Shown: positions 16,889 through 20,762 of the stretch, piece after piece | Layout: each line of letters starts with the position of its first letter | Position numbering within the stretch: the stretch's first letter is position 1 | Assembly (NCBI RefSeq): GCF_039555755.1 | Contig: NZ_CP154631.1 | Span: 1,302,001 to 1,366,000, forward strand | Source: Pseudomonas sediminis | Lineage (GTDB): Bacteria > Pseudomonadota > Gammaproteobacteria > Pseudomonadales > Pseudomonadaceae | DNA: 64,000 nucleotides | Direction of reading: 5' to 3' | Program-made: the position numbers and the translations under genes | Notes under the pieces: model-generated | Database searches by the model: none | Told to the model about the DNA's origin: nothing | What the model saw: only the letters and a program-made list of their open reading frames with translations

Positions 16889-17287
16889 TCAACCGCGCTG
16901 TGCGTTCTTGATCGAGATCTGCGTATTGAGCGTCCAGAAGTCGTAGAGCACGCCGATCAGGAACAGGCCGCCGGTAAACAAGTAGATGATCCCGGTGATC
17001 CACTTGCCCTGATACATGCGGTGCACGCCGAACACGCCGAGGAAGGTCAACAGAATCCACGCCACGTTGTAATCGGTTTCACCTGCGGTAAAGCGCAGAT
17101 CGGCCTCGCGATCCATCGCCGGGATCAGGAACAGGTCGATGATCCATCCGATGAAGAGCAATCCCAGGGTGAAGAACCAGATGGTACCGGTCACCGGCTT
17201 GCCGTAGTAGAAGCGGTGCGAGCCGAGGAAACCGAAGATCCACAACAGGTAGCCGATCAGCTTGCTGTGCGTATCGGGTCGTTGCAT
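16889..17287 (-). CDS. TM2-domain membrane protein
   Basis: A 132-residue inner-membrane protein. The start at 17287 is chosen because AAGGAG lies at 17294-17299; an in-frame ATG seven codons upstream lacks such a site. Two related hydrophobic halves each carry the TM2 pattern of a glycine-rich helix, an H/R-Y-x-G-K turn and a second helix: GFLGSHRFYYGKPVTGTIWF and LGVFGVHRMYQGKWITGIIY. Each is followed by a segment ending in Asp (WIIDLFLIP, VLYDFWTL). The family's function is not known. It is convergent with ntrC. Confidence 0.88.
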   Translation of the reverse strand: MQRPDTHSKLIGYLLWIFGFLGSHRFYYGKPVTGTIWFFTLGLLFIGWIIDLFLIPAMDREADLRFTAGETDYNVAWILLTFLGVFGVHRMYQGKWITGIIYLFTGGLFLIGVLYDFWTLNTQISIKNAQRG

Positions 17288-17402
17288 GGCGAACTCCTTG
17301 ATAGACATATAGCTTCAGACGCTGCCTGCAGACATAAGGTTTCACGCGCTCAGAGGCGACACGACACAACGAATGACTTGATAGCTGTACGGAGCCCATA
17401 TA

Positions 17403-17418
17403 CTGTATAAAAAAACAG
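17403..17418 (+). promoter_or_regulatory. LexA (SOS) box
   Basis: CTGTATAAAAAAACAG is an exact CTG-N10-CAG LexA box with an A/T-only spacer, flanked by TA on both sides. It lies 17 bases upstream of the radical SAM start, overlapping the likely promoter, so LexA binding would block transcription. This makes the next two genes a probable DNA-damage-inducible unit. Confidence 0.85.
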
Positions 17419-17435
17419 TATAGATATGGCCTGCC

Positions 17436-18647
17436 ATGCAACTGATCGAAAAGCTCACCATCCTCGCCGACGCCGCCAAGTACGATGCCTCCTGCGCCAG
17501 CAGCGGCGCACCAAAGCGCAGCTCCAAGGGCAAGGACGGCATCGGCTCGACCAATGGCATGGGCATCTGCCACAGCTACACGCCGGACGGTCGCTGCGTG
17601 GCGCTGCTGAAGATCCTGCTGACCAACTTCTGTCTGTACGACTGCCAGTACTGCATCAACCGTCGCTCCAGCGACGTGCCGCGTGCGCGCTTCACCCCCG
17701 AGGAAGTGGTTACCCTGACCCTGGACTTCTACAAGCGCAATTGCATCAGTGGCCTGTTCCTCAGCTCCGGCATCATCCGCTCGGCCGACTACACGATGGA
17801 GCAGCTGATCCGCGTCGCCAAGCTGCTGCGCCAGGAGCACCAGTTCCGCGGCTACATTCATCTGAAGACCATCCCCGATGCCGCACCGGAGTTGATCGCC
17901 GAGGCCGGCCTGTACGCTGACCGCCTCAGCGTCAATATCGAGCTGCCCACCGAAACCAGCCTGGTACGCCTGGCACCGGAAAAGAACGTCGGCAGCATCC
18001 ACCAGGCCATGCACAAGATTCATCTCGGCGAGCGTGAGGCCAAGGAAGAACACCGCGCGCCGCGCTTTGCCCCGGCCGGGCAGAGCACGCAGATGATCGT
18101 CGGCGCCGACGCCACCGATGACAGCACCATTCTGCACAACGCCCAGAGCCTGTATCACGACTACCGCCTGCGCCGCGTCTACTACTCGGCGTTCAGCCCG
18201 ATTCCTCAAAGCCCGAAAACCGTGCCCTTCGAGGCGCCGCCGCTGCTGCGCGAGCATCGCCTGTACCAGGCCGACTTCCTCATGCGCGGCTACGGTTTCA
18301 GCGCCACGGAGCTGCTCGCCGGTCCCGGCAACCTGGCGCTAGACATCGACCCCAAGCTGGCCTGGGCCCTGGCCAACCGCGAGCAATTTCCCGTCGATCT
18401 CAACCGTGCCGACGAATCACTGATTGCCCGCGTGCCCGGCATCGGCGTGCTCAGCGCACGGCGCTTGGGCGCTCTGCGGCGGGAACGACGTATCCGCTAC
18501 GAAGACCTGACCCGACTTCGCTGCGTACTGGAAAAGGCCAAGCCCTTTATCGTCACTCAGGACTACCGGCCACCGCGCGCCGAGCACGAGTCCATAGTGC
18601 TGCGCCAGCAACTGCGCGACACCCCGGCACAGATGGCGTTGTGGTGA
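17436..18647 (+). CDS. Radical SAM protein of the putative DNA modification/repair type, SOS-controlled
   Basis: A 403-residue protein. The radical SAM cluster motif is Cys66-x3-Cys70-x2-Cys73 (CLYDCQYC); extra conserved-looking cysteines are Cys20, Cys45 and Cys54. The C-terminus carries a helix-hairpin-helix DNA-binding motif (LIARVPGIGVLSARRLGAL, about 329-347). This matches the family annotated as putative DNA modification/repair radical SAM protein (I recall TIGR03916), which travels with the DUF4130-type protein encoded next. The LexA box upstream supports a damage response. The chemistry is unknown; by analogy with spore photoproduct lyase, direct reversal of a lesion is conceivable. 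No clear ribosome binding site precedes the ATG. Confidence 0.88.
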   Translation: MQLIEKLTILADAAKYDASCASSGAPKRSSKGKDGIGSTNGMGICHSYTPDGRCVALLKILLTNFCLYDCQYCINRRSSDVPRARFTPEEVVTLTLDFYKRNCISGLFLSSGIIRSADYTMEQLIRVAKLLRQEHQFRGYIHLKTIPDAAPELIAEAGLYADRLSVNIELPTETSLVRLAPEKNVGSIHQAMHKIHLGEREAKEEHRAPRFAPAGQSTQMIVGADATDDSTILHNAQSLYHDYRLRRVYYSAFSPIPQSPKTVPFEAPPLLREHRLYQADFLMRGYGFSATELLAGPGNLALDIDPKLAWALANREQFPVDLNRADESLIARVPGIGVLSARRLGALRRERRIRYEDLTRLRCVLEKAKPFIVTQDYRPPRAEHESIVLRQQLRDTPAQMALW

Positions 18648-19534
18648 TGCACAGCCTGCGCTTCGACGGCACCTTCGCCACCTGGCGCCAGGCCGCACGC
18701 CGCGCCTTGTTGCAAGGCCTGGCCCCGCACCAGTTGCAATGGCTGGACGAGGAGGCCCCACCCAGCCTGTTCGATAAGCCCGCCGAGGGCGCGCCGGAGC
18801 CTAGCGGCCGCTTGCGCGTCTCCCCCGAACTGCTAGATCTGCTGGAAAGCGCCGCCCAGTACCGCGGCGATGAACGTTGGAGCCTGCTCTACCGCGTGCT
18901 CTGGCGTTTCGTGCAGGGCGAACGCAGTGCCGTGCTGGCCGGCGATCCCGATGGCAGCGAGCTGCATCGCCGGCTCAAGGCGGTGCGCCGCGAGGCACAC
19001 CACCTCCATGCGTTCGTGCGTTTCCAGCCGAGCAAGGTGCGAGGCGCGCCGGACTTCGTCGCCTGGTTCGAGCCCGCGCATGACATTCTTGCCTCGGCCA
19101 GCGGGCACTTTGCCGAGCGCCTGGGCAAGCACAGCTGGCTGATCGCCACGCCACGCGACGGCGTTTACTGGGATGGCGAGCACCTGCGGCATGAGCGCCG
19201 CTGCCCGGCGCAATGGCAAGCCTGGGCACAACAGCCCGAGGATGATGGCCAAGCCCTGTGGCGTGCCTACTACGGCAGCACCTTCAACCCGGCACGCCTA
19301 AACCGAACGGTGATGCAGCAGCATCTGCCACTGAGATTCTGGAGGCATCTGCCGGAAGGCCCGCTGATTCCCCAACTGATGAGCGAGGCACGCGCCGGTG
19401 CGCAGCGCGATGGCCAGGCATTGGTGCTCGCCGGCAAGAAAGGCAAACGCATCGCTCAGATAAACGAAGGGGACGCATCGCGTCCCCCGTCTGGCAGCAT
19501 CAGCGGAAGCGACGCCCCGGATCTTCCTCGCTGA
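18647..19534 (+). CDS. DUF4130-type putative DNA repair partner protein
   Basis: A 295-residue protein whose ATG overlaps the preceding stop (TGATG), so translation is coupled. It belongs to the family of putative DNA repair proteins (recalled as TIGR03915/DUF4130) that sits beside this radical SAM family or is fused to uracil-DNA-glycosylase-like domains. Conserved-looking blocks are REAHHLHAFVRFQ, FVAWFEPAHDIL, HFAERLGKHSWLIATP and WRAYYGSTFNPARLN; the His/Arg/Tyr content suggests nucleic-acid contact. The end looks abnormal: after GKKGKRIAQ the frame runs through a GGGGACGC/GCGTCCCC hairpin and overlaps the 3' end of pilU by 35 bases. Confidence 0.85.
   Translation: MHSLRFDGTFATWRQAARRALLQGLAPHQLQWLDEEAPPSLFDKPAEGAPEPSGRLRVSPELLDLLESAAQYRGDERWSLLYRVLWRFVQGERSAVLAGDPDGSELHRRLKAVRREAHHLHAFVRFQPSKVRGAPDFVAWFEPAHDILASASGHFAERLGKHSWLIATPRDGVYWDGEHLRHERRCPAQWQAWAQQPEDDGQALWRAYYGSTFNPARLNRTVMQQHLPLRFWRHLPEGPLIPQLMSEARAGAQRDGQALVLAGKKGKRIAQINEGDASRPPSGSISGSDAPDLPR
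19469..19487 (+). terminator. Hairpin inside the 3' end of the DUF4130-type gene
   Basis: GGGGACGC, loop ATC, GCGTCCCC: an 8-bp perfect stem between the converging SOS pair and pilU. It has no T-run but is well placed to stop both transcripts. It lies within the coding tail of the plus-strand gene. Confidence 0.5.
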
Positions 19535-20699: not shown

Positions 20700-20762
20700 T
20701 GGGAGCGAGCTGTGCCCGCGAACAGGGTGACGCAAAAGCTTCGCGAGCAACGCTCGCTCCCA
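20700..20762. repeat. REP-like inverted pair between pilT and pilU
   Basis: TGGGAGCGAGC (20700-20710) and its exact complement GCTCGCTCCCA (20752-20762) flank a 41-base centre containing TGCCCGCGAACAGGG and TTCGCGAGC. This is the look of the dispersed Pseudomonas GGGAGCGAGC...CGCGAA repeat. Lying inside a probable operon, it could stabilise or reduce downstream pilU mRNA. Confidence 0.7.

Follow-up and report, generated by a model that had tools for sequence, protein, structure and literature searches.

A predicted SOS-controlled radical SAM and DUF4130 gene pair in Pseudomonas sediminis and its relatives as a candidate DNA-acting enzyme system

The window analysed here is a 64,000-nt stretch of Pseudomonas sediminis DNA (assembly GCF_039555755.1, contig NZ_CP154631.1, positions 1,302,001 to 1,366,000), part of a 4.6 Mb single-contig genome labelled G000. 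Its forward strand carries two coupled genes, the first (17436..18647) encoding a 403-amino acid radical S-adenosylmethionine (SAM) protein of family TIGR03916 (rSAM_link_UDG), and the second (18647..19534), a DUF4130 protein of family TIGR03915, 295 amino acids long if translated from the ATG at 18647. The TGA stop of the former (18645–18647) overlaps this ATG (18647–18649), forming the TGATG junction of a two-gene unit reported in the original prediction, which was made from the sequence alone; GTG codons at 18641 and 18644 are alternative starts. An exact match to the LexA box, CTGTATAAAAAAACAG, is located upstream on the same strand (17403..17418), again as predicted. Both proteins score far above curated cut-offs: the radical SAM protein matches TIGR03916 with 549.6 bits (cut-off 343.5; model positions 2–399 of 415), this being its sole NCBIfam match at E up to 0.001, and the DUF4130 protein, taken from the GTG at 18641, matches TIGR03915 with 206.4 bits (cut-off 112.25) and PF13566 with 125.9 bits (cut-off 27). 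NCBIfam names the families a putative DNA modification/repair radical SAM protein and a putative DNA repair protein, respectively, and the gene order and tight spacing are those of most relatives.

Seven copies of CTGTATN6ACAG are present in the genome, compared to none of the reversed control. Of the six copies elsewhere, five (all but L005) precede lexA, imuA, nrdB, a radical SAM gene of the PA0069 family and a UmuD-like gene that, at 55 bits, falls short of its family cut-off (110). The PA0069-family gene (L004, genome position 1634506) is a second radical SAM gene with a LexA-type palindrome in front, and nrdB, encoding a ribonucleotide reductase subunit, has such a palindrome as well (L006, 3226687).

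The box had also been said to overlap the promoter of the pair. The overlap is likely from comparison, while a consensus scan upstream of the pair yielded no sigma-70 promoter at its threshold. Reading the forward strand directly, we find a –35-like hexamer TTGATA (17378..17383) and a –10-like TACTGT (17401..17406), the latter coinciding with the left end of the box. As TTG lies 23–25 bases upstream of TACTGT in 30/30 loci of the genus (at 23 in 24 loci), a promoter whose –10 element falls inside the LexA box is likely, and LexA, bound to a box overlapping this conserved arrangement, would cover it.

In a draw of 57 genomes TIGR03916 was identified in 30 of the 36 from the same genus, our own included, and in none of the 21 from other genera of the order; a separate draw shows it in some other genera of both the family and the order. 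All 30 genus loci have DUF4130 where the radical SAM gene ends, and all keep the LexA box, starting 37–45 bases upstream of the profile match. Twenty-one of these boxes are exact in the eight core bases and nine have one mismatch; the reversed control gives no exact site and a single one with one mismatch.

For a wider comparison 299 genomes were drawn from the phylum, and 80 named loci, the best 80 of at least 589 relatives, were added. TIGR03916 is present in 53 of the 299 genomes and TIGR03915 exceeds its cut-off in 56, all 53 being among the 56 (lists compared by eye). A Caulobacter genome that served as a control matches both families. Forty-eight of the 53 loci were compared (those of G000, G028, G290, G314 and G339 were left out), giving, together with the named ones, 128 loci (L068–L195), to which the LexA-box counts refer; the Planctomycetota loci L246–L253 stand outside this set. 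The loci are related by descent and do not represent independent events. In 45 of the 48 loci no more than 250 bases separate DUF4130 from the radical SAM gene, and in the other three the distance is 558 to 2975 bases (the –997 spacing at L105 reflects a start-site artefact). DUF4130 is found in 78 of the 80 named loci, and the contigs of the remaining two stop 140 and 20 bases past the radical SAM gene.

An exact box within 120 bases upstream of the gene was observed in 108 of the 128 loci (46/48 and 62/80), compared to 1/128 for the reversed pattern and 23 of 6004 random windows. The box type tracks lineage: beta- and gammaproteobacterial loci have CTGT-N8-ACAG, and alphaproteobacterial ones, GTTC-N7-GTTC or its complement, which is the alphaproteobacterial LexA motif according to the available text of PMC8565304. 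Comparison of the genus and wider loci thus strongly supports the SOS control proposed originally, and on these sequence grounds we judge, rather than calculate, that the pair is almost certainly SOS-controlled.

The DNA-related role of the pair is likewise well supported by comparison, given the conserved boxes and the mutasome genes described below; a role in DNA repair or tolerance seems to us very probable, again as a judgement and not a computed value. The reading that we prefer, and to which we give roughly an even chance on present comparisons, is that of an SOS-induced, DNA-acting radical enzyme pair, which would repair or process damaged bases alongside translesion synthesis. That the radical chemistry takes place on DNA bases is, taken by itself, also about evenly balanced in our uncomputed estimate.

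The predicted radical SAM cluster motif, Cys66/Cys70/Cys73 (CX3CX2C; 17631..17654, forward strand; PF04055), is retained in 140/140 aligned rows. Moreover, Cys20 is conserved in 139 rows, and Cys45, His46 and Cys54 in 136 (the four residues span 17493..17597 on the forward strand), and the three additional cysteines suggest, from the alignment, that a second iron-sulphur cluster is bound. The C-terminal helix-hairpin-helix (HhH), named in the original prediction, is visible as a PF12836 match at residues 319–351 (18390..18488, forward strand); at 19.8 bits (E 0.00088) it falls below the Pfam gathering cut-off of 27. The matches that the family profile gives over about the same region are weak too, namely ComEA chains (E 0.011 and 0.02) and RuvA chains (E of at least 0.05). 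Distant radical SAM relatives from the Planctomycetota draw (L250–L253) lack Cys45, His46 and Cys54 and have no DUF4130 match nearby; they are possibly a sister family with another partner.

Several structural matches of the radical SAM protein, namely MiaB, RlmN, LIAS and pyruvate formate-lyase activase, act on RNA or proteins. They would agree with a protein that modifies, for example, tRNA or a repair factor and is merely co-regulated with DNA repair. Such a substrate is very unlikely, given that the obligate partner, DUF4130, is often fused to a uracil-DNA glycosylase (UDG) domain, that the protein itself contains the HhH domain, and that the pair in some loci sits inside a DNA polymerase cassette.

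Neighbourhoods and fusions, a survey of which the original prediction had proposed, show two links of the pair, to UdgX and to the mutasome. In 94 of 127 DUF4130 proteins the C-terminal side carries a fused domain of the uracil-DNA glycosylase UdgX; among the 33 without it are some cut by locus ends (at least L087 and L139), as well as L080, which has a UDG match in a different reading frame. In the fused domains GEQPG is present in 92/94, and the pattern for the R-loop ending in His, in 84/94. Unlike most TIGR03915 relatives, the window lineage has no UdgX domain on DUF4130: TIGR03914 has no matches in G000, the DUF4130 protein of the window included. On a quickly built tree, which holds 84 radical SAM proteins, the UdgX-fusion label requires eight changes, at least six of them forced by well supported branches. 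The tree omits L080, L087, L126, L139, L142 and L150 (cut or uncertain ends), L196, L197 and L250–L253, and from the 48 phylum-draw loci includes L068 only.

Three genomes of one genus (g100; G253, G270 and G340, loci L264, L265 and L266) have DUF4130 and no radical SAM match. In each of them DUF4130 is divergent from imuA and has a LexA-type box, and in two (L264 and L266) UdgX is still fused. Hence the original statement that DUF4130 is known only by association with the radical SAM protein or by fusions is nearly right, these three of the 56 DUF4130 genomes departing from it. As the radical SAM protein is never found without DUF4130, while DUF4130 sometimes occurs without the radical SAM protein or UdgX, DUF4130 looks like the hub of the system, judging by gene content, with the radical SAM protein needing it and UdgX being optional.

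According to the available text of PMC10359453, UdgX bonds covalently to an abasic site via the R-loop histidine, and its precise physiological role is called largely unknown. This bond, the His-ending R-loop pattern of most fused proteins, the attachment of UdgX to the C-terminal side of DUF4130 and the DUF4130–UdgX proteins of L264 and L266, encoded without a radical SAM gene, would all fit processing of abasic sites or DNA–protein cross-links, with the DUF4130 hub holding abasic DNA, UdgX capping it covalently, and the radical SAM subunit resolving adducts or sugar lesions. We consider this improbable, as UdgX is absent from G000, and the loci of ten named Pseudomonas records with DUF4130 have no UDG match, though the pair is kept there behind a LexA box. 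In the base-repair reading UdgX would be dispensable: since G000 has none, the central reaction should proceed without it.

The second link is to the ImuA-ImuB-DnaE2 mutasome, whose genes have LexA-type boxes as well and in some Alphaproteobacteria are physically joined to the pair. Genes resembling imuA, imuB or dnaE2 are present in the flanks of 18/128 loci. L141, L166 and L186 show the order imuA, imuB, LexA-type box, radical SAM gene, DUF4130–UdgX, dnaE2, with some assignments better based than others. In L186 phmmer identified imuA, while Pfam gave both the imuB-like IMS domains and a protein of the DNA polymerase III alpha type; in L166 Pfam finds the imuB-like IMS domains and phmmer finds dnaE2, an open frame at the imuA position matching nothing; in L141 imuA and dnaE2 come from phmmer and imuB from position only. 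In other loci, e.g., L143 and L183, imuA and dnaE2 are divergent from the pair. DnaE2 is present in 45 of the 53 pair genomes and in 69 of the 246 others, a strong association, but one confounded by ancestry. The mutasome has a separate function, and in G000 imuA and dnaE2 are located elsewhere, at 4.07 Mb.

In the available part of PMC3765255 DUF4130 is predicted to be an enzyme with a role related to mutagenesis, and both uracil DNA glycosylases and radical SAM proteins of the SplB-like kind are given as its associates; the mutasome gene order fits the network given there, and a legend adds that DUF4130-associated enzymes might modify thymines. That legend, together with the linkage to imuB and dnaE2, favours base rewriting, in which the pair would install a modified base where DNA is damaged or gapped, e.g., a mark that resembles uracil or derives from thymine; the mark would be read by UdgX, where present, or by translesion polymerases, so that mutagenesis is altered and the original base is not restored. 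LipA/LIAS, which inserts sulphur, is among the best structural matches and points the same way. Rewriting nevertheless appears unlikely to us: no modification-enzyme signature was found beyond the radical SAM fold, and UdgX-free lineages would be without that reader. Reversal or processing of the damaged base in place is the course that we prefer.

SplB, the spore photoproduct lyase, offers another comparison. Like SplB, the first protein of the pair is a radical SAM protein, and SplB is SOS-linked in several groups (PMC8565304, available text). The pair differs from SplB and the PA0069 family in having extra N-terminal cysteines and the HhH. The PA0069 family is presumably SplB-like, and its member from G000, taken as a stand-in for SplB, has no usable sequence similarity to the pair's protein (best BLASTP E 1.5). 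SplB has a conserved H-donor cysteine after the cluster motif, while in our alignment no column after Cys73 exceeds 30% Cys in the 140 rows.

We take COG4277 to be the COG of the pair's radical SAM protein. Predicted SOS control of an operon of UDG (COG1573) and COG4277 in Bacteroidetes is described in the available text of PMC8565304, which cites the same control for Verrucomicrobia and Alphaproteobacteria (its reference 65, on Caulobacter). As in that operon, two genes stand behind a LexA site in the window; unlike in that operon, the partner protein here lacks a UDG domain, and the LexA site is of the CTGT-N8-ACAG type rather than either of the two Bacteroidetes motifs of that source. The pair had originally been called a candidate undescribed system, which is only partly right, such control already being in print for other phyla. 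No description of the chemistry of TIGR03916 or TIGR03915 members was found in the literature searched for DUF4130, COG4277 and UdgX with radical SAM. The pair is not named in the available parts of PMC7739468, PMC5554334, PMC12700426 (whose supplement lists 47 SOS genes of Caulobacter) and PMC1839093, its terms were not found in PMC13384398, and the words fused, SOS, radical and operon are all absent from the UdgX papers searched. Within the scope of these searches, what appears to be new is the UdgX-free Pseudomonas form with its consistent box, the shift of box type between lineages, the additional cysteines and the particulars of how the pair and the mutasome genes are ordered.

The course of events that we propose for the preferred reading begins with LexA, which would block the promoter until RecA triggers LexA cleavage, a step strongly supported by the comparison of boxes. 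The radical SAM protein and DUF4130 would then form one working unit, because the former is not found without the latter. The HhH and DUF4130 may deliver the active site of the radical SAM protein to DNA that is damaged or gapped, a place where translesion polymerases are at work as well. There the radical SAM cluster would generate the 5'-deoxyadenosyl radical, while the putative second cluster on Cys20/45/54, with its free iron site, might position the damaged base or give an electron or atom, the base being thereby reversed or processed in place. In other lineages the fused UdgX domain would remove uracil and cap the abasic site. We infer, in line with the original prediction, that a base lesion is reversed or rewritten by the pair. 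Taken further, the pair might represent direct DNA repair of a new class. A radical SAM enzyme with two clusters, induced by the SOS response and with DUF4130 as its obligate DNA-holding subunit, would mend or rewrite a damaged base in place next to the ImuB–DnaE2 mutasome, and UdgX would serve as an optional cap for abasic sites, gained or lost by lineage; this fuller version is tentative, and we hold it with distinctly less confidence than the general reading.

Several observations weigh against the reading. Being co-regulated with repair genes is no proof of a DNA substrate. The region of the proposed second cluster is the least confident one in the structural model, residues 18–24 and 42–54 having a predicted local distance difference test score below 50. 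DUF4130 has no convincing known fold, and hhalign of DUF4130 with 17 RecJ-like proteins aligned two columns at a probability of 0.04%, that is, no DHH/RecJ similarity of sequence profiles. The three DUF4130 genomes without a radical SAM match belong here, as do the eight of 53 pair genomes without DnaE2 over the cut-off, which imply that the mutasome is not required. Finally, 20 of the 128 loci have no exact box. Five Pseudomonas loci and L135, L145 and L168 have CTGT-N8-ACAG with one mismatch, and L146 and L164, GAAC-N7-GAAC with one mismatch; L142, L162 and L176, all from Verrucomicrobia, show TGTTC-N4-GAACA-like sites with 0–1 core mismatch, resembling those upstream of lexA in two of these genomes; L137 has GAAC-N4-GTTC upstream of the gene, and no box is visible upstream of the pair in L068 and L190, all these sites being assessed by eye. 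The gene start of L163 is doubtful. In Planctomycetota, the phylum of L190, TIGR03916 exceeds its cut-off in 5 of 99 genomes. In L089, L138 and L159 a different palindrome takes the place of the exact LexA box.

To our knowledge, few known enzymes mend damaged bases by radical chemistry. A radical SAM operon kept behind LexA-type sites in several lineages provides a concrete place to seek new repair chemistry, and through the links to UdgX and the mutasome two open questions become approachable via one operon. The UdgX-free Pseudomonas form is the simplest for study.

The different palindrome, GTCTCAN5TGAGAC, is found upstream of the pair in 3/3 genomes (Xanthomonas, Stenotrophomonas and G148; L138, L159, L089 and L200–L207). 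It also precedes a TIGR03817-like helicase gene in 3/3 (two scanned, the third by similar sequence) and uvrA, identified by motif, in 2/3; each genome has 2–3 sites, and the reversed control gives none. Of the four lexA genes identified in these genomes, three carry TTAGTAGTAATACTACTAA rather than this palindrome. A different regulator of the DNA-damage response may use GTCTCAN5TGAGAC as its operator.

In L086 a hemerythrin-like open frame (named by eye) separates the radical SAM gene from DUF4130–UdgX. Plasmid records with a radical SAM relative number 158, mostly from Phaeobacter, Paracoccus, Azospirillum and Leisingera, and 142 of them are predicted to be non-mobilizable. One record labelled Acinetobacter phage (L198, CAKLQH020000003.1), with the pair beside glyQ, glyS and an aidB-like gene, is probably a bacterial chromosome. 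Neither protein of the pair matched any family in the PADLOC anti-phage defence models.

In the window itself, the 3' end of the DUF4130 gene overlaps a convergent PilT/PilU-like gene (named by eye) tail to tail by 35 bases (19500–19534). A second exact CTGT-N8-ACAG (20710–20725), GC-rich in its core and upstream of the PilT/PilU-like gene, is probably due to chance. On the other side of the pair, a gene for a small membrane protein, presumably of the TM2-domain type, occupies 16889–17308 on the opposite strand; its start is about 95 bases from the LexA box, which it could share.
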